Assembly: GCF_000213975.1 (NCBI RefSeq)
Contig: NZ_GL892076.1
Span: 906,235-951,352, forward strand
Direction: 5' to 3'
Length of the DNA: 45,118 nucleotides
Origin: Centipeda periodontii DSM 2778
GTDB lineage: Bacteria; Bacillota; Negativicutes; Selenomonadales; Selenomonadaceae
The position numbers and the translations under genes are program-made. Numbering within the stretch: position 1 is the first letter of the stretch; each line of letters opens with the position of its first letter. Positions 6,292 through 15,318 of the stretch are shown piece after piece. The notes beneath the pieces are model-generated. The model saw only the letters and a list, made by a program, of their open reading frames with translations, searched no databases and was not told the origin of the DNA.

Positions 6292-7836
6292 ATGCGAGTA
6301 GCAAATGTGTTGCACAATAGCATATACTCGATGACACTTTATGTCGTGTTAGCGCTTTTTGGCATATTGATACGGCAGGCATTTACGCGTCATTTACCTA
6401 TTGAGTTCCTTGGTCTTGAGGGGTTGTTTACCAATATAATTTCTCTATTGTCCATTGCTGAAATGGGAATCAGTGCCGTGGTCAGCTACGGCCTTTATCG
6501 AGAACTTGCAAATAAAAACGAAGCCGAAATTAATATGTTGATGAGTATCTATCGATATATCTATCTCATCATAGGCACGCTGGTTGCTCTGATAGGGGGG
6601 GCTCTGTTCTTCTTTTTGCCGTGGATTGTACGGGATAATAGTGTTGAATGGGGGTATGTCCAATTCGTTTATGTGATCCAAATTTGTACAGTTTTAAGCA
6701 CCTACTTTCTGGCATATCGACGTACGTTATTTGCTGCAGACCAAAAGGACTATATCTGTATTCGCATAGATCTTGTCTGTTCGTTTGCTGCAAACCTTGT
6801 GAAGTTCGCTACGATTGTGATCTGGGAGAGTTATACAATGTATGCACTCTCCGCACTTTGCTTTAATATTTTGGCGAATTTGATTATATCGCATCGTCTT
6901 GGACAGGAATACCCGTTTCTGTGTACTGTCAAGGTTACTATACAGGATCTGATACAACGAAAGTTTTTTGTGGATGTAAAAAATTTACTGATTCACAAAC
7001 TGTCTTATGCCGTCTATAGCGGGTGTGACGTGATTGTTATTTCGTCTGTTTTGGGGCTGCGAACGGCCGGGCTGGTGGCGAACTATATTCTCCTTTACGA
7101 TGGTGTTTATAAACTTTTGTATAAGACTTTACAGGGGATTGTTCCTTCAATCGCGAATTTACTTCATACGGCTGATGGAGAAAAGAGCTATCGTGTTTAT
7201 CGTATGTTGGATTTCGTTTATTTTTTGATTGGGGGCTATGTTGCCTGCGTCTACTTTATTGTACTTCAACCATTTGTAACTTTGTTTTTTGGAGCAGATT
7301 TCTTGCTTGAGGATGCCTATGTGGTGGCATTGACATGTAAAGTATTTCTAAGTATGCAGTTTGAAAATGCGTGTAATTTTCGAAACACATACGGCATTTT
7401 TGAAAATGATCGTGGCTATTTGGTTTTGGCTGCTGTAATGAATTTCATTCTATCAGTGATATTATCCCATTACCTCGGACTTGTCGGTGTTATGGTTGGT
7501 ACGATTATAGGGCTGTGGTTTATCACTTATAGTCGGGTGCAGTTTGTCTTTCGTGTGATCTTCCGGCGGAGTATGAAGAAATATTTGTGGAATCACGCAT
7601 GGTGGAGTGTCGTCGTTCTACTGGAAGTCTTGTTGATTGACCAAATATTAAGTGCCCCCTTTTTTTCATCAACGTACATGGGGCTAATGATCAAGTGTTT
7701 CTGCGCAGGAATTTTGATGTTGGGAATGCAGGTCATTGTGTTCCATCGACGTGAGGAGTTTCGTAGTGTCTGCCTATACATAGGTGAAGTTAGAGATATT
7801 CTTATGAGTAAGATTCAAGGGAGGAAATCTCAATGA
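6292..7836 (+). CDS. Wzx-type oligosaccharide flippase (MOP superfamily)
   Basis: The 514-residue product has 12-14 hydrophobic segments and the N-terminal pattern of polysaccharide flippases: a short amphipathic start, then [20 protein letters not shown] and [16 protein letters not shown]. Such proteins move lipid-linked repeat units across the cytoplasmic membrane for polymerisation by a Wzy/EpsG-type enzyme; a candidate for that partner is the first gene of the window. Its stop codon overlaps the gmd start (ATGA at 7833-7836), so the two are translationally coupled. The mechanism is inferred from the family; substrate specificity is unknown. Confidence 0.85.
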
Positions 7837-8864
7837 AGAAAGTTTTGATTACAGGAATTACGGGGCAGGATGGCTCCTATCTTACGGAGTTATTGTTGGA
7901 AAAGGGATATGAGGTACACGGCATCATTCGCAGACAGAGCAGCCAAAATACAGAGCGGATCGATCATATCTTGAATGATCTGGTGCTTGCCAATCGTGTT
8001 TTCCTGCACTATGGTGACATGACGGACTCGAGTAATGCCCATGCACTCATCCGCAAGATTCAGCCAGATGAGGTCTATAATCTTGCGGCGCAGTCACATG
8101 TTGCCGTATCGTTTGAGGTGCCGGAATATACGGCAGAGGCGACAGGTGTCGGTACGATTCGTCTACTTGAAGCGATTCGCCAGAGTGGGCTGCCTATTCG
8201 GTTCTATCAGGCGTCGACCTCGGAGCTTTTTGGTGGATTGCCTGAGACAGCTCCGCAGAGCGAGGTAACTCCATTTTATCCCAAGAGTCCTTATGGGGCG
8301 GCAAAGCTCTACTCATTTTGGATCACGAAGAACTATCGTGAATCTTATGGAATGTTTGCCTGCAACGGAATCCTCTTTAACCATGAGTCTCCACGACGTG
8401 GGGAGACTTTTGTAACGCGTAAAATAACGCTTGCAGTTGCTCGGATTACGAAGGGTTTGCAGGAAAAGCTGACTCTGGGAAATCTTGAAGCAAAGCGTGA
8501 TTGGGGCTTTGCGGGCGACTATGTAGAGGGCATGTGGCGTATTCTTCAGCAGGAACAACCGGAAGACTATGTGCTTGCGACGAACGAGACGCATACCGTG
8601 CGTGAGTTTGTTGAGAAGGCTTTTGCTGAGACAGGCGTTTCCATCCGTTGGGAAGGAAAAGGTGTCAATGAGAAAGGATATGATGCCAAAACAGGAAGAC
8701 TCCTTGTCGATGTGTCAGAGCAGTTCTATCGCCCCGCAGAAGTTGAACTCCTCTGGGGAGACTCGACGAAAGCTGAACGTGAATTGGGGTGGAAACGTAA
8801 AGTCGGATTCTCTGAATTGGTGTCCATGATGGTAAAAGCAGATTTGGAAAAGTACGTTCAGTAA
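7833..8864 (+). CDS. gmd: GDP-mannose 4,6-dehydratase
   Basis: The enzyme converts GDP-D-mannose to GDP-4-keto-6-deoxy-D-mannose, the first committed step to GDP-L-fucose and other GDP-deoxysugars. The 343 residues begin [17 protein letters not shown] with the Gmd-specific TGxTGQDG nucleotide loop. STSELFGG supplies the active-site Thr/Ser and Glu, and SPYGAAK the catalytic Tyr and Lys. Length and motifs are normal for the family. The substrate can come from manC further along the locus; possible users of the product are fcl and the ColD-like dehydratase. GC content begins to rise here relative to the AT-rich genes before it. Confidence 0.96.
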
Positions 8865-8895: not shown

Positions 8896-9912
8896 ATGGG
8901 AAACAGAATTATTACAGAAGATATTGAATCTATATGGTCAGAAATAGACTTATCTCCTCTGGCTGGCAAAAGTGTTTTGATTACAGGGGCAAGCGGTGTA
9001 ATTGGAACCTATATGACATATTCCCTTCTTCGTTGGAATACGTTTTCTATGGATAAGATAGGGGTTTCTCTTTTGATTCACAGGGAGCTTCCAGATCATT
9101 TAAAAGAACTGGAACAAAACCCGGCTATTTCGATTTATCGTGGCGATTTATCGGACTGTCAGTTCTTTGAGACATTACCGACTTTTGATTGTATTATTCA
9201 TGCGGCGGGATATGGTCAGCCAAGCCTCCTAATGGAAAATCCGATTAAGACGATTCGCATAAAAACAATGGCAACTGATTTTTTGCTGTCTCATCTTGCT
9301 CCGTCAGGGCGCTTTCTCTTTATAAGTACGAGTGAGGTTTATAGCGGTTCGTCGGATATGCCATATACAGAGTCAACCGTTGGTACCACAATGCCGGATC
9401 ACATGCGCTCTTGTTATATCGAGGGAAGTCGTTGTGGTGAGGCGATTTGTCATGCGTATATGGGAGCGGATAAGACCATCCGAATTGGTCGGGTGTCCTT
9501 GCTATATGGTCCGGGAGGTCGCAAAACAGACAGACGCATATTTTATGAGTTTATTAGAAAAGCACTGGGGGGCTCCATTCAGATGATGGATGCGGGCAGA
9601 GGCAAACGCGTATGCTGTTATATTTCAGATACGGTGTCAATTTTGTGGAATATTCTTCTGCGTGGCAAAGAACACACCTATAATGTCGGCGGCGTGTCGC
9701 ATACGACGATTGCAGAACTTGCCAGAATGATTGGCGAAAAACTGAAGGCGCCTGTAATATGTCCCAAAGAAGAACAGGGGCTAACTGGTGCTCCGAAAGA
9801 TGTTGTTCCTGATGTCAGTCGCGCAATTTCTGAATTTGGAAAGAAGGATTTTGTTTCTTTGAACGATGGTCTCGACCGAACAATATCGTGGTATCGCGAG
9901 AATCTTTCTTGA
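8896..9912 (+). CDS. Extended SDR, UDP-glucuronate decarboxylase-like, lacking the catalytic Lys
   Basis: The 338-residue protein has a clear Rossmann start (VLITGASGVIG, residues 27-37) and the TSEVYSG block around residue 146, as in UDP-glucuronate decarboxylases and dTDP-glucose 4,6-dehydratases. The Tyr of the YxxxK motif is Y174, but the residue four positions on is S178 (CYIEGSRCGE) where the family has Lys. Either the reaction is altered, another residue takes over, or the protein has lost dehydrogenase chemistry. It sits between gmd and fcl, so a GDP-sugar substrate is possible. ATG 8896 follows a CAGGAGAA ribosome-binding site. Confidence 0.75.
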   Translation: MGNRIITEDIESIWSEIDLSPLAGKSVLITGASGVIGTYMTYSLLRWNTFSMDKIGVSLLIHRELPDHLKELEQNPAISIYRGDLSDCQFFETLPTFDCIIHAAGYGQPSLLMENPIKTIRIKTMATDFLLSHLAPSGRFLFISTSEVYSGSSDMPYTESTVGTTMPDHMRSCYIEGSRCGEAICHAYMGADKTIRIGRVSLLYGPGGRKTDRRIFYEFIRKALGGSIQMMDAGRGKRVCCYISDTVSILWNILLRGKEHTYNVGGVSHTTIAELARMIGEKLKAPVICPKEEQGLTGAPKDVVPDVSRAISEFGKKDFVSLNDGLDRTISWYRENLS

Positions 9913-9926
9913 TGGGGTGATACTGA

Positions 9927-10862
9927 ATGGAACTTTCAGATAAAATCTACGTCGCAGGGCATACAGGGATGGTTGGTTCTGCCATTGTCCGTCATCTGCA
10001 AAAGAGCGGGTATCATAATCTGCTGCTGAGAACGCATAGTGAACTTGATTTAACAGATCAACAAGCGACAAAGAGTTTCTTCAAGCAGGAACATCCGGAC
10101 TATGTGTTTATCGCCGCAGCGAAGGTCGGTGGAATACAGGCGAACAGTACATTTCCTGCGGATTTTCTCTATGTAAATTTGATGATCAATGCGAATATTA
10201 TCCATGCGGCACATGAAGTCGGTGTGAAAAAACTCTTGGCTTTGGGAAGTGCCTGTATTTATCCGAAGTTTGCAGAGCAGCCGCTGCGAGAGGAAGCCTT
10301 TTTGGATGGAAAACCTGAGCCAACCAATGAAGGCTACGCCATTGGTAAGATTACGGCGTTGGAGCTGGCGAAGTTTTTTCATCGTCAGTACAATGATCCG
10401 TTTATCAGTTGTATGCCAACGAATATTTACGGTGAGAATGATGACTTTGATTTGCAGGGATCCCATGTGATTCCGGCGATGATTCGTAAATTCCATACGG
10501 CAAAACTGGAGGGGGCGGATTCTGTTACTCTCTGGGGGACGGGGAGTCCAAAGCGTGAGTTCCTCTATGTAGATGATCTTGCGGATGCTTGTGTTTTCCT
10601 TATGGAGAATTATGATGAAGAGGAGCATATCAATATCGGCAGCGGTGAGGAAGTGTCCATGAAGGAGCTGGCAGAGGAGATTGCATCCGTTGTCGGTTTT
10701 AATGGAGAACTGATATATGATACGGAGAAGCCGGATGGAGCACCTCGCCGTCTTGTGGATTCTACCCGTATTCATGAACTTGGATGGCAGCATAAGGTGG
10801 CGTTGCGTGAGGGGCTTGAACGTTCGTATCAGTATTTTTTAAATCACTGTGTAGATAAGTAA
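9927..10862 (+). CDS. fcl: GDP-L-fucose synthase (or a ColC-like 5-epimerase/4-reductase)
   Basis: The 311-residue product matches Fcl/WcaG: GHTGMVGSAIVRHL at the NADPH site, GSACIYP with the catalytic Ser and Cys, PTNEGYAIGK with the Tyr and Lys, and GSHVIPAM with the His. Fcl epimerises C3 and C5 and reduces C4 of GDP-4-keto-6-deoxymannose to give GDP-L-fucose. The GT11 gene in the locus makes fucose the simple reading. Because a ColD-like 3-dehydratase is also present, this enzyme could instead act like ColC, a Fcl relative that finishes GDP-L-colitose; sequence by eye does not separate the two. Confidence 0.9.
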   Translation: MELSDKIYVAGHTGMVGSAIVRHLQKSGYHNLLLRTHSELDLTDQQATKSFFKQEHPDYVFIAAAKVGGIQANSTFPADFLYVNLMINANIIHAAHEVGVKKLLALGSACIYPKFAEQPLREEAFLDGKPEPTNEGYAIGKITALELAKFFHRQYNDPFISCMPTNIYGENDDFDLQGSHVIPAMIRKFHTAKLEGADSVTLWGTGSPKREFLYVDDLADACVFLMENYDEEEHINIGSGEEVSMKELAEEIASVVGFNGELIYDTEKPDGAPRRLVDSTRIHELGWQHKVALREGLERSYQYFLNHCVDK

Positions 10863-10889: not shown

Positions 10890-12182
10890 ATGGAGCGATA
10901 TCGGGATCCTGTTCATGGCTTTATTGAAGTACGGCCGTTGGAGAAGAAGATTATCGATTCTGCGCCATTTCAGCGCCTTCGTCACATCAAGCAGCTTGCC
11001 ATGACAAATCTTGTGTTCCATGGGGCAGAGCATACGCGCTTTGGCCATTCACTTGGTGTGATGCACTTGGTGACGAAGGCGTTTCGTATGGCTGTTGAAA
11101 ATGGAAGTGAAGAGTATCCTTTTTCATCTGCAAAGAAAGAGTGGTATGAACAGATTCTTCGCCTTATTGCTTTAACACATGATCTAGGGCATGCGCCGTT
11201 CTCTCATGCTTCGGAATCAGTTTTTCCTGATGGAGTAGAGCATGAGGACTTCACTGAAAAAATTGTCAAACAGACATCGATAGCTGAGCACATTTCTAAT
11301 ATTGGAAATGAATTTAAGGAACAATATGGCGAAGCTTATGCTATTACTTCTGAATTGATTTGCGATATATATCGTGGCAGGATTTCTGGAATAAATTCGG
11401 AGTTCACCTTCCTTAAAAGCTTCATGGATGGGGAACTCGATTGCGATAAGATGGATTATCTTTTGCGTGATTCTCTTTACTGTGGAGTCAACTATGGAAA
11501 ATATGATCTTGATAGATTGTTGGCTTCATTGACAATTGATGGTAAAGATGGGTTTCCGCGACTTGCCATAGATTATGGAGGACTTAAGGTTTTTGAGGAA
11601 TTTGTATTGGCACGATACTTTATGTTCACCGAAGTCTATTTTCACCGCACACGTCGTTATTTTGATATTGTCTTAGGCAAGGCGCTACAACAGATCTTAC
11701 CTAATGGGAAGTATCCTAAAAAGATTTCTTCCTATTTGAAGTGGGATGATGTACGTGTATTACAAGAGTGTCGAAAAAAGATGAGTAAGGATGAATATTG
11801 TCGATATATCGTGGAAAGATATGTATACCCTTGTGTTTATGAAACATCGGCACATGCCGTAGGAGATTCTTTGGAACTGTATAAGGGGATGAAAGGGCTA
11901 CTACATAAAGATTTTGAAAAGAATCTTTTTATTGAGGATACTTCTGCTGATAAGATGCCACATAAAATTCCTGTTCAGTCTAGCATAGAGGATGAGAAAG
12001 CTGTTGTTTTGTTAAACAAGAGAATGGGGAAACGAGTTTCTATTTCGGATGAATCTCATATTATTAGGGCGTTAGCAAATAAAATTGGAATCAGGAGGCT
12101 ATATGCCCATCCAGACATAGCTGAACAAGCAAGAACCGTTGTCCGAAATTGGTATAACCCGCATGAGGAGGAAGCTCAATGA
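10890..12182 (+). CDS. SAMHD1/YwfO-like HD-domain phosphohydrolase
   Basis: The 430-residue protein shows the HD metal site H53, H97-D98 and D186, in TRFGHSLG, LTHDLGHAPFSH and DCDKMDYLLRD. The N-terminal stretch PFQRLRHIKQL...EHTRFGHSLGV closely resembles SAMHD1 and bacterial dNTP triphosphohydrolases such as B. subtilis YwfO. The expected activity is hydrolysis of dNTPs or related nucleotides in the cytoplasm. It does not belong to polysaccharide synthesis, yet it lies between fcl and a sugar dehydratase on the same strand. Its stop overlaps the next gene's start (ATGA). Past about 11.1 kb it is more AT-rich than its flanks. A housekeeping or phage-defence role are both possible. Confidence 0.85.
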   Translation: MERYRDPVHGFIEVRPLEKKIIDSAPFQRLRHIKQLAMTNLVFHGAEHTRFGHSLGVMHLVTKAFRMAVENGSEEYPFSSAKKEWYEQILRLIALTHDLGHAPFSHASESVFPDGVEHEDFTEKIVKQTSIAEHISNIGNEFKEQYGEAYAITSELICDIYRGRISGINSEFTFLKSFMDGELDCDKMDYLLRDSLYCGVNYGKYDLDRLLASLTIDGKDGFPRLAIDYGGLKVFEEFVLARYFMFTEVYFHRTRRYFDIVLGKALQQILPNGKYPKKISSYLKWDDVRVLQECRKKMSKDEYCRYIVERYVYPCVYETSAHAVGDSLELYKGMKGLLHKDFEKNLFIEDTSADKMPHKIPVQSSIEDEKAVVLLNKRMGKRVSISDESHIIRALANKIGIRRLYAHPDIAEQARTVVRNWYNPHEEEAQ

Positions 12183-12700
12183 AACTGATTGAAAAATATG
12201 CATTCCTGATAGGAGATATTTGTAAGGATCAACAGACTGGCAAGAAGAAGCTGCAGAAGCTTATGTATCTGATTGAGCGGAAAGGTGTTCAATTAGACCT
12301 AAGATATTCGATTCATTTTTTTGGTCCGTATAGTGCAAGGTTGGATCACGCTATCCATATTCTTGAAAATGAGGAGTGGCTAGATATTGATACATCTCGG
12401 CAGACACATCGGATTATCATGAAAGAATCAGCAAGCACTCAACTTGAAGAGGGAAGTGCTCTTGCAGAAGCGGAAAGTGCTCTTGTTGATGAAGTGCGTG
12501 CAGCTTTTTATGATAAATCCCCTATGGAACTTGAAGCGTTGACAACGATTGATTATGTAGCAACTACTTTGTTGCATGGGAATGCTACGAGAGCAGATGT
12601 AATAAAACAGGTGAAAATAATAAAGGGGAAGAAGTTTTCTTCTCAGGAGTTAGAAAAAGAGTATGATGTCCTGATTGAGCAAGGATATCTTTCTGCATAA
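12179..12700 (+). CDS. YwgA/Panacea-like small protein coupled to the HD hydrolase
   Basis: The 173-residue soluble protein has an N-terminal helical region KLQKLMYLIERKG followed by HFFGPYSARLDHAI. That arrangement resembles YwgA of Bacillus and, more loosely, the Panacea/SocA antitoxin-like fold (KLQK-L-Y...GP). The second half is acidic and helical. It overlaps the HD gene by four bases (ATGA), so the proteins are probably made in fixed ratio and may bind each other. From memory, B. subtilis also keeps ywfO and ywgA adjacent, which favours a conserved functional pair. No enzymatic motif is visible. A regulatory or inhibitory role for the HD enzyme is inference. Confidence 0.6.
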   Translation: MKLIEKYAFLIGDICKDQQTGKKKLQKLMYLIERKGVQLDLRYSIHFFGPYSARLDHAIHILENEEWLDIDTSRQTHRIIMKESASTQLEEGSALAEAESALVDEVRAAFYDKSPMELEALTTIDYVATTLLHGNATRADVIKQVKIIKGKKFSSQELEKEYDVLIEQGYLSA

Positions 12701-12726: not shown

Positions 12727-13923
12727 ATGGAAAAGATTGGTGTTGGGTATGCGTATGTCAGTGATGCTGAGAAACGCTATGTCAATGAGGCATTGGATGC
12801 AGGACGTCTTTCGCAGGGGAAGATGGTTCATAAATTTGAGAAAGAGTTTGCGCGACTTCATGACCAAAAGTATGGTGTCGCTTGTAACAGTGGAACGTCT
12901 GCCCTGCACGTTTGCCTAGAGGCAATGAAAGAAGTCTACAGGTGGGAAGATGGCAGTGAAGTTCTTGTTCCTGCGATTACCTTTATTGCCACATCGAATG
13001 CCTGTATTCATGCAGGATTGAAACCTGTCTTTGTCGATGTGGATCCAATCTCGTATAACATGGATGCCTTCAAAATGGAGGAGCGCATCACGGATAAGAC
13101 CGTTGCGGCAATTCCAGTGCATACATTTGGACAGCCGTGTGAGATGGATGCAATCATGGCTGTAGCAGAAAAGCATGGTCTGCGTATTTTGGAAGACTGT
13201 GCAGAAGCGCATTTTGCAACCTATAAGGGGAAAAAGATTGGCAGCTTTGGCGACATGGCTGCGTTCAGTACCTATGTTGCGCATACGATCACCACAGGCA
13301 TCGGGGGCGTTATCACGACGAATAATCTGGTGTTGACGGAAATTTCCCGCTCGCTTATCGCGCATGGACGTGCCTGTACCTGTGAGACATGCTTGGCATC
13401 TGACCCGAGACAGGTGTGCAAGCTGCGTATGCAGACCGAGATGGACAAGCGCTTTATGATGGTGCGTATGGGCTACAGCTACCGCATTGGCGAGCTGGAA
13501 GGTGCTCTTGGGCTTGGTCAGCTCGAGAATCGTGATCTGATTATGAATACGCGCAAGGAGAACGCGCATTATCTTAGCGAGAGGTTGCAGGGAACAGAGA
13601 AGTATTTACAGCTTCCTAAGTATCCGGATTATGTCGATCATTCGTTTATGATGTATCCGATTGTCATCAAGAAAGATGCACCATTCACGCGGGATGATTT
13701 TACGCATTTCTTAGAGAAGAATAACATTGAAACACGACCGATGCTTCCGCTGTTGAACCAACCTGTTTACAAGAAACTCTTTGGCGACATCGAGCATGAC
13801 TATCCGGTTGCCGAGTGGCTGGACCATTACGGACTCTACGTTGGGTGTCATCACGGGCTGAGCAAGGAACAGCTCGATAAGCTTGTAGCGACAATTAAAA
13901 CATTTTTGCAGGATAAAGCATAA
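12727..13923 (+). CDS. DegT-fold PMP-dependent sugar 3-dehydratase (ColD/E1-like)
   Basis: The 398-residue protein has the fold-type I layout of DegT/DnrJ/EryC1/StrS enzymes, including the cofactor Asp D157 in LEDCAEAH. The position that should hold the PLP-binding Lys (seven residues before the GG of the GxGG loop) is H186 (STYVAHTITTGIGG). His at this site marks ColD and E1 3-dehydratases, which use PMP to remove the C3 hydroxyl of a 4-keto-6-deoxysugar. A cysteine cluster C217, C219, C222 and C231 follows, where the E1 enzyme has iron-sulfur ligands. With gmd in the same locus, GDP-4-keto-6-deoxymannose is a likely substrate. It would usually be annotated as an aminotransferase. Confidence 0.8.
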   Translation: MEKIGVGYAYVSDAEKRYVNEALDAGRLSQGKMVHKFEKEFARLHDQKYGVACNSGTSALHVCLEAMKEVYRWEDGSEVLVPAITFIATSNACIHAGLKPVFVDVDPISYNMDAFKMEERITDKTVAAIPVHTFGQPCEMDAIMAVAEKHGLRILEDCAEAHFATYKGKKIGSFGDMAAFSTYVAHTITTGIGGVITTNNLVLTEISRSLIAHGRACTCETCLASDPRQVCKLRMQTEMDKRFMMVRMGYSYRIGELEGALGLGQLENRDLIMNTRKENAHYLSERLQGTEKYLQLPKYPDYVDHSFMMYPIVIKKDAPFTRDDFTHFLEKNNIETRPMLPLLNQPVYKKLFGDIEHDYPVAEWLDHYGLYVGCHHGLSKEQLDKLVATIKTFLQDKA

Positions 13924-13971: not shown

Positions 13972-13995
13972 AATATAATTGTGAGAGAGAATGGT

Positions 13996-15318
13996 ATGCA
14001 AATCGTATTACTTTCCGGCGGTGCGGGCAAGCGGTTATGGCCGCTATCGAATGACCTTTACTCGAAGCAGTTTCTCCGACTTCTGAAACGAGAAGATGGC
14101 ACGCGGGAGTCGATGATTCAGCGTGTCTGTCGTCAGATGCAAAACGTTGCATCGAATATACCGATTACCGTTGCGACGGGACGGGAACAGGTTTCTCTGA
14201 TTCGACGCCAGCTTGGATCGGGGGTGAATATCTCCATTGAGCCATGCAGGCGTGATACGTTCCCGGCGATTTCCTTGGTCTGCGCATATTTGCATGAGGT
14301 GCGTGGTGTTTCTCTCGATGAAGCAGTCGCAATTTGCCCTGCCGACCCTTATGTCGACGGGGATTATTTCCATGCGGTTCTCCGGCTTCTTGAGGAGGCG
14401 GAACGGGAAAACTCTGCGAACCTTGTCTTGATGGGAATTGAGCCGACATATCCGAGTGAGAAGTATGGCTATATAATTCCTGTGTCCCAAGAAGCACAGA
14501 GCATGGTGCAGTCGTTCAAAGAAAAACCGGATAAGGAAAATGCTGAGGAGTACATTGCGCAGGGAGCATTATGGAACAGCGGTGTCTTTGCATTCAAGCT
14601 TGGCTATGCGCTTGGAAAGGCACGTGAACTGCTGGACTATACGGACTATGAGGAGCTTTTCAACCGCTATGAGGAACTCACCAAAATTAGTTTTGATTAT
14701 GCCGTGGTTGAGAAAGAAAAAAATATTGCAGTTCAGCGTTATAGCGGGACATGGCTTGACATTGGTACATGGAATACGCTTGCCGAGGTGATGCCTGAGT
14801 CTTCGATCGGTCGTGTCACGATGGATGAGATGTGCAAAAATGTCCATGTTGTGAATACGCTCCCCATGCCGATCCTCTGCATGGGACTGAAGGATGTTGT
14901 GGTTGCGGCGAGTCCAGAGGGCATTCTCATTTCGGATAAGGAGCGCTCCAGCGCGATGAAACCCTATGCCGAAAAACTCCATACTCCTGTGATGTATACC
15001 GAAAAATCATGGGGCGAGTTTCGCATTATCGACGCGGAAACGGAGAGTCTCACGATCAAGATCACACTCAGTCCGGGACGTTCTCTGACCTATCACCTGC
15101 ACGAGCGACGCGATGAGACGTGGACGGTGATCGAAGGGCGCGGCTGGGTGAAGCTCGACGGCAACGAGTTCGCCGTTGCCGAGGGGCAGACTGTGCGTAT
15201 CCCACGCGGCTCGTTCCATACGATACGGGCGGAGACGCTGTTGAAGGTAATGGAGATTCAAACCGGTGAGGATATTGACGTGGATGATAAAATTATATGG
15301 GGAAACTCTAAAGGGTAG
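13996..15318 (+). CDS. manC: Mannose-1-phosphate guanylyltransferase / mannose-6-phosphate isomerase
   Basis: This two-domain enzyme (440 aa from ATG 13996) makes GDP-mannose. The N-terminal nucleotidyltransferase has LSGGAGKRLWPLSN for GTP binding and FKEKPDKENAEEYI for the sugar-phosphate site. The C-terminal cupin domain (about residues 330-440) has GRSLTYHLHERRDE and IPRGSFHTIRA, typical of the type II isomerase. The start is set at ATG 13996, preceded by GAGAGA; an in-frame GTG five codons upstream has no ribosome-binding site. It would feed gmd in the same locus. No phosphomannomutase gene is present in the window, so that step must be encoded elsewhere. Confidence 0.94.
   Translation: MQIVLLSGGAGKRLWPLSNDLYSKQFLRLLKREDGTRESMIQRVCRQMQNVASNIPITVATGREQVSLIRRQLGSGVNISIEPCRRDTFPAISLVCAYLHEVRGVSLDEAVAICPADPYVDGDYFHAVLRLLEEAERENSANLVLMGIEPTYPSEKYGYIIPVSQEAQSMVQSFKEKPDKENAEEYIAQGALWNSGVFAFKLGYALGKARELLDYTDYEELFNRYEELTKISFDYAVVEKEKNIAVQRYSGTWLDIGTWNTLAEVMPESSIGRVTMDEMCKNVHVVNTLPMPILCMGLKDVVVAASPEGILISDKERSSAMKPYAEKLHTPVMYTEKSWGEFRIIDAETESLTIKITLSPGRSLTYHLHERRDETWTVIEGRGWVKLDGNEFAVAEGQTVRIPRGSFHTIRAETLLKVMEIQTGEDIDVDDKIIWGNSKG

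Follow-up and report, generated by a model that had tools for sequence, protein, structure and literature searches.

The 45,118-nucleotide stretch of DNA analysed here (the window), from the 2.76 Mb genome of Centipeda periodontii DSM 2778, encodes a protein that is fairly likely to be a PMP-dependent GDP-4-keto-6-deoxymannose 3-dehydratase bearing a metal cluster, most likely iron–sulfur, on four cysteines of a single loop. This bacterium, of a mostly anaerobic family, would probably use the enzyme to remove one oxygen from a GDP-linked sugar with the help of vitamin B6 and an iron–sulfur or other metal cluster. Judged from alignments, the four-cysteine set is unlike that of the known 3-dehydratases; if the assignment is true, the protein would be a GDP enzyme whose cluster has other ligands, a third design beside E1/SpnQ and ColD. 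Arguing for this assignment are the conservation of a histidine and four cysteines, the alternation of the loop with a remote cysteine, the GDP-sugar neighbours, fusions with fcl-like sequence, the fold match and the anaerobic hosts.

Gene, fold and cofactor position

The protein matched PF01041 with 323.4 bits against a gathering cut-off of 19.8, which places it in the DegT/DnrJ/EryC1/StrS fold family. The features of the gene, all on the forward strand of the window and located with the help of alignments, were as follows.

12727..13923, +, DegT-fold, His-type, putative PMP-dependent nucleotide-sugar 3-dehydratase of 398 aa (from alignments, tree and structure model)
13198..13203, +, codons of C158 and A159, the latter aligned with the remote cluster cysteine of E1
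13282..13284, +, codon of His186, which stands in place of the PLP lysine and corresponds to the histidine of E1 and ColD
13375..13419, +, loop C217-x-C219-x2-C222-x8-C231, proposed metal-cluster ligands, invariant in alignments A1 and A2 (codon starts: C217 13375, C219 13381, C222 13390, C231 13417)

H186 aligned with the histidine of E1 (RfbH or AscC; CDP-4-keto-6-deoxyglucose 3-dehydrase, 3bcx_A) and with that of ColD (GDP-4-keto-6-deoxymannose 3-dehydratase, 2gms_A, its sequence obtained through a PDB alignment). In GDP-perosamine synthase (3bn1_A) the aligned residue is a lysine. An earlier sequence-only reading of this DNA had proposed a histidine in place of the PLP lysine and a cysteine cluster in the region of the E1 cluster loop. 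Both hold: the histidine occurs in the window protein and in 12 of 12 orthologues, no lysine was found at the cofactor position, C158, A159, C217, C219, C222 and C231 stand where that reading put them, and the alignment confirms the location of the four loop cysteines, which are invariant in A1.

A first structure model, built from 13 rows, left residues 215–251 below pLDDT 50, and a second one from 73 rows, all of them taken from the window or from related loci (mean pLDDT 94.1), was used. Blocks across residues 211–240 average 89, 74 and 76 in this model, of which the loop is the least confidently predicted part. The best structural matches were GDP-perosamine synthase (Z 52.3), E1 (51.4) and ColD (49.0); since Z values within 1 count as tied, the first two rank equally.

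This ranking bears on the reading in which the fold survives without the 3-dehydratase chemistry and the protein works as a GDP-sugar aminotransferase or some other PLP enzyme. GDP-perosamine synthase, which acts on the same substrate as the one proposed here, was at 37% identity the top match both in structure, tied with E1, and in PDB sequence searches. It is, however, a Lys-type aminotransferase without the cysteine loop, whereas the Schiff-base lysine is replaced by histidine in all A1 orthologues, and one branch of the tree, which carries the only His/Lys change, sets the sampled Lys-type rows apart. Such a reading therefore appears improbable, and an ordinary aminotransferase was rejected on the basis of His186 together with the tree position of the target, outside the sampled Lys-type rows.

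Conservation of the four-cysteine loop

A whole-protein search of 200 relatives gave matches in 12 genomes, that of the window included, at 13 places. All had E values of 5.5e-192 or better and none fell between there and the 1e-60 limit, a gap that makes the target group a sharp clade. In alignment A1, where the window protein is joined by the 12 orthologues from this search (67–96% identity), H186, C217, C219, C222 and C231 were invariant, and so were C138, C158 and C374. When a protein of the Solidesulfovibrio magneticus plasmid pDMC1 (L090, 37% identity) was added to give alignment A2, C138, C158 and C374 dropped out and the only invariant cysteines were 217, 219, 222 and 231. The same four-cysteine spacing was present in two viral-contig proteins of 34–36% identity (L142 and L146), found with patterns containing neither the histidine nor the cysteine motif. 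Retention of the loop cysteines at 34–37% identity, where other clade-invariant cysteines are lost, makes conservation by chance unlikely.

A pattern scan of public genomes yielded 55 loci, 57–77% identical to the target, that include Selenomonadales, Lachnospiraceae, Oscillospiraceae, other Clostridia and Treponema. The four-cysteine spacing was found in 55 of 55, a count that is biased and not independent because the scan patterns include the histidine and the first cysteine pair; the histidine was present in 54 by pattern and in the remaining one (L024) on a separate look. The cellular hosts that carry a name, Selenomonadaceae, Lachnospiraceae, Oscillospiraceae, Treponema and Solidesulfovibrio, are anaerobes.

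Ligand arrangement relative to E1

The cysteine sets were tabulated for 164 distinct sequences from a 189-row alignment, after rows that were identical over positions 100–260 or too short had been dropped. Proteins with the four-cysteine loop all carry the histidine and lack the remote E1 cysteine (57/57), and those with three-cysteine E1-type loops, again all with histidine, keep the remote cysteine in 65 of 66 cases, although these counts are not independent and the tree shows the ligand swap in no more than two independent pairs. The E1-type rows combine the remote cysteine, which we take to be C193 in E1 numbering, with C-x-C-x7-C, longer in some viral rows. The single exception (L185), an E1-like protein of a viral contig, has EDCA where EDxC is usual, so that its cysteine comes one residue earlier, and may represent a natural displacement of the remote ligand. 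Many other viral contigs (among L154–L204) encode E1-like proteins in which C-x-C is followed by about 11–13 residues before the next cysteine, the remote cysteine being kept.

Because the remote cysteine alternates with the four-cysteine loop, the fourth ligand has apparently changed place, lying inside the loop in the target clade and outside it in E1; in terms of the proposed cluster, it would have shifted from the remote position, here A159, to C222. The sequence-only reading had proposed an E1-like cluster, and this stands for the site, which is the E1 loop, but not for the motif, as the remote position is occupied by alanine and the fourth cysteine is inside the loop.

Four invariant cysteines in one loop would also fit zinc. 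In this alternative the zinc is structural and the protein is a ColD-like enzyme on GDP-4-keto-6-deoxymannose, with glutamate regenerating PMP and ammonia being released. ColD-type and viral-group proteins beside GDP-mannose genes lack the loop cysteines, so that no redox cluster is needed there, which suits a zinc site. The cysteines of the target nevertheless sit in the loop that holds the [2Fe-2S] cluster of E1 and alternate with its remote ligand, neither of which a zinc site would need, and a cysteine fills the remote position in 23/23 of the His proteins that lack a loop C-x-C, ColD included. We consider structural zinc unlikely, and an iron–sulfur cluster remains the preferred assignment for the loop. 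The Lys-type relatives had no loop C-x-C in any of 18 distinct rows, and three of the 18 had the remote cysteine.

Phylogenetic placement

A careful tree was built from 74 rows with the loop, the histidine column and columns 157–159 excluded. Two of the long rows of a quick tree (K_L016 and E_SynPh_L096) were removed and the third, ColD, was kept. The target clade received support of 100/99 and its grouping with a viral group 100/98, the viral group alone being weaker (88/66). The Solidesulfovibrio group with L015 (100/99) joined the target and viral groups at 99/89. ColD, a long branch, and L091 grouped with E1 and not with the target, the ColD and E1 types being united at 100/100, and the Lys types fell on one side (100/97). 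The tree shows one His/Lys change; its root was set on the Lys types by choice, so that the order of histidine and lysine cannot be read from it. The sequence-only reading had suggested a protein intermediate between the two known types, a view abandoned here: ColD and E1 join each other, with the target apart from them on another His-type branch, so it is not a link between them.

The nearest relatives of the target are proteins of virus-like contigs that carry the histidine without the loop cysteines (L128–L153 and L183; 44–49% identical to the target where compared). A single unbroken four-cysteine clade of the target and Solidesulfovibrio groups was rejected (AU p 0.0008; these groups were defined with a first tree already in view). 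The tree requires at least three changes of loop C-x-C, whether by gain or loss, and the loop cysteines may have been gained twice, or lost in the viral group and L015. These patterns raise the possibility, tentative and in our estimate somewhat short of an even chance, that the target is a separately evolved second metal-cluster 3-dehydratase with its own iron–sulfur ligand set, which arose possibly twice (in this and the Solidesulfovibrio clades), and that electron-driven and glutamate-driven deoxygenation were swapped at least two or three times.

The viral sisters provide a point against the cluster, since they mostly lie beside gmd and fcl-like or SDR genes and yet lack the loop cysteines. 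Their occurrence in a like setting implies that the pathway can run without a cluster in some hosts. Together, the target and its cluster-free sisters would offer a testable natural series for the question of how an enzyme that uses B6 acquires or sheds a cluster for electron transfer and switches its reductant.

Gene neighbourhood and nucleotide-sugar context

The target is surrounded in the window by gmd, fcl-like and manC-like genes, in agreement with the GDP-sugar substrate that had been suggested from the sequence. The order is gmd, an SDR gene and a GDP-fucose-synthase-like SDR gene, followed after an insert of two genes by the target and then by a mannose-1-phosphate guanylyltransferase-like gene.

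7833..8864, +, gmd, GDP-mannose 4,6-dehydratase, which would make the proposed substrate (TIGR01472, 544 bits, over the cut-off of 415)
8896..9912, +, SDR-family protein, probable sugar reductase or epimerase (PF01370 and neighbours)
9927..10862, +, GDP-L-fucose-synthase-like SDR, which may follow the dehydratase in the pathway as a 5-epimerase/4-reductase (NF047922, 465 bits, below the cut-off of 500)
13981..15318, +, mannose-1-phosphate guanylyltransferase-like protein, which would supply GDP-mannose (TIGR01479, 216 bits, below the cut-off of 373; PF00483, PF01050)

The 55 loci came from motif patterns and so do not sample contexts blindly; both flanks reach 4 kb or more in 31 of them. Among these 31, where neighbours were labelled by BLAST with identity thresholds, gmd was within 4 kb in 23, an fcl-like gene in 30 and a manC-like gene in 18. 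An fcl-like sequence lies in frame ahead of the dehydratase in 9 of the 55 loci, all of Selenomonadales: six have 311–331 extra codons, two (L025 and L031) are cut by the contig end, and one (L026) has its fcl-like part in two frames. Such fused enzymes might give a one-protein route to 3,6-dideoxy GDP sugars. Relatives of the SDR at 8896..9912 adjoin gmd or target-like genes in L060 and several viral contigs. The window further encodes, at 1158–2072, a GT11 (fucosyltransferase-type) protein; members of its single-linkage cluster were present in 27 of 59 sources, counting the window.

RfbH was detected over its cut-off in 18 of 60 relatives and not in the window's own genome. Of 12 RfbH loci from the same class, four were examined and all four have CDP-glucose 4,6-dehydratase, with glucose-1-phosphate cytidylyltransferase next at 3/3 of those tested for one. 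Given the GDP-mannose neighbours on one side and the CDP-glucose neighbours on the other, the target enzyme and RfbH seem to serve two different nucleotide sugars. This weighs heavily on the reading of the target as an RfbH/E1 orthologue acting on CDP-4-keto-6-deoxyglucose, which draws on RfbH (NF011936) being the best NCBIfam match (254.9 bits) and on the shared histidine and cysteine loop. That score is far below the cut-off of 423, one genome (G001) carries both RfbH and a target orthologue, and a clade uniting the target, Solidesulfovibrio and E1 groups was rejected (p 8e-34). An identity with E1 is thus highly improbable, and orthology was rejected on the grounds of cut-off, neighbours and tree.

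The search for an E3-type reductase at the 55 loci with a ferredoxin-motif regular expression flagged only three small ORFs, all at L044; one of these was run against Pfam and gave no match. The same expression flagged nothing in 12 RfbH regions (RfbH was recovered in 11 and not called in L212). Since the RfbH regions were equally blank, the absence of a reductase near the target is uninformative, and it was dropped as an argument against the cluster.

Proposed reaction and comparison with known enzymes

Gmd dehydrates GDP-mannose to GDP-4-keto-6-deoxymannose, and the window gene assigned to this family would provide this step. We infer that the product is the substrate of the target, that the reaction is deoxygenation at C3, that the metal is Fe–S rather than Zn, and that electrons come from a general ferredoxin or flavodoxin. 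By analogy with E1 and ColD, PMP would condense with the 4-keto group to a Schiff base, His186 would take the PMP proton and the C3 hydroxyl would leave. The cluster could then pass electrons from the general donor and reduce the 3,4-ene intermediate, giving GDP-4-keto-3,6-dideoxymannose with PMP staying in place, and because PMP would be retained, glutamate would not be needed. The adjoining or fused fucose-synthase-like SDR may subsequently make GDP-L-colitose or a related sugar, and at loci with a split transketolase a two-carbon branch may be added.

The target and E1 share the DegT fold, the histidine in place of lysine and a cysteine-rich loop in the same place, and 3-deoxygenation chemistry is expected in common. 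They differ in that E1 has C-x-C-x7-C with a remote cysteine whereas the target has C-x-C-x2-C-x8-C with alanine at the remote position, in their GDP-mannose or CDP-glucose neighbours, and in their separate branches on the tree. ColD resembles the target in the histidine, the GDP-mannose setting and the next enzyme, which is fucose-synthase-like and presumably of the ColC type. ColD, however, has neither loop cysteines nor a cluster and groups with E1, in contrast to the four invariant loop cysteines of the target.

Compared with SpnQ (dTDP-4-keto-2,6-dideoxyglucose 3-dehydratase), the histidine is common to both, and SpnQ has a [2Fe-2S] cluster and a dTDP sugar. Two RfbH-annotated Streptomyces proteins of dTDP-sugar clusters, taken as stand-ins for SpnQ, showed the E1-type motif. 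A review counts E1, ColD and SpnQ as the well-characterised 3-dehydratases, among which the GDP enzyme lacks the cluster, mentions the residues H220 and H188, and has SpnQ taking electrons from ferredoxin or flavodoxin pairs (PMC8987622). No cluster-bearing GDP-type enzyme was found among the matches listed by title or opening of the abstract, mostly from outside subscription journals, and this counts as weak evidence of novelty.

Additional observations at related loci

A Clostridium-type orthologue (L067, 9001–10185) has no fcl-like gene or gmd within 4 kb and a gmd-like gene farther off; it adjoins a large protein with weak radical-SAM similarity, so that its setting may differ.

Split transketolase genes lie beside gmd and target genes at L220 (10318–12088), L221 (6516–8286), L019 (3166–4994) and L090 (4985–7008). 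Transketolase halves were within 4 kb in 8 of the 31 well-flanked loci and in 13 of all 55, whatever the flank length, and their place is taken in the window by the SDR at 8896–9912. Some strains may accordingly make a branched GDP sugar, the 4-keto sugar being branched afterwards. A split-gene transketolase has been proposed for ketone branching in other pathways (PMC12247030).

The insert at 10890–12700 of the window comprises an HD-domain (dGTPase-like) gene and a SocA/Panacea gene resembling the DarG C-terminus. The pair recurs at the same place in genome G063 (L221; 77% and 71%), whereas G001 (L220) has a Panacea-like ORF there that is shortened to 119 aa. The pair is possibly a toxin–antitoxin or defence pair inside the sugar operon.

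Finally, the virus-like contigs L128–L138, L148, L153 and L183 carry a His-type relative mostly together with gmd and fcl-like or SDR genes, the L153 stretch being without gmd. These assemblages amount to a GDP-sugar cassette in probable phages, whose His-type proteins are the nearest sisters of the target clade.
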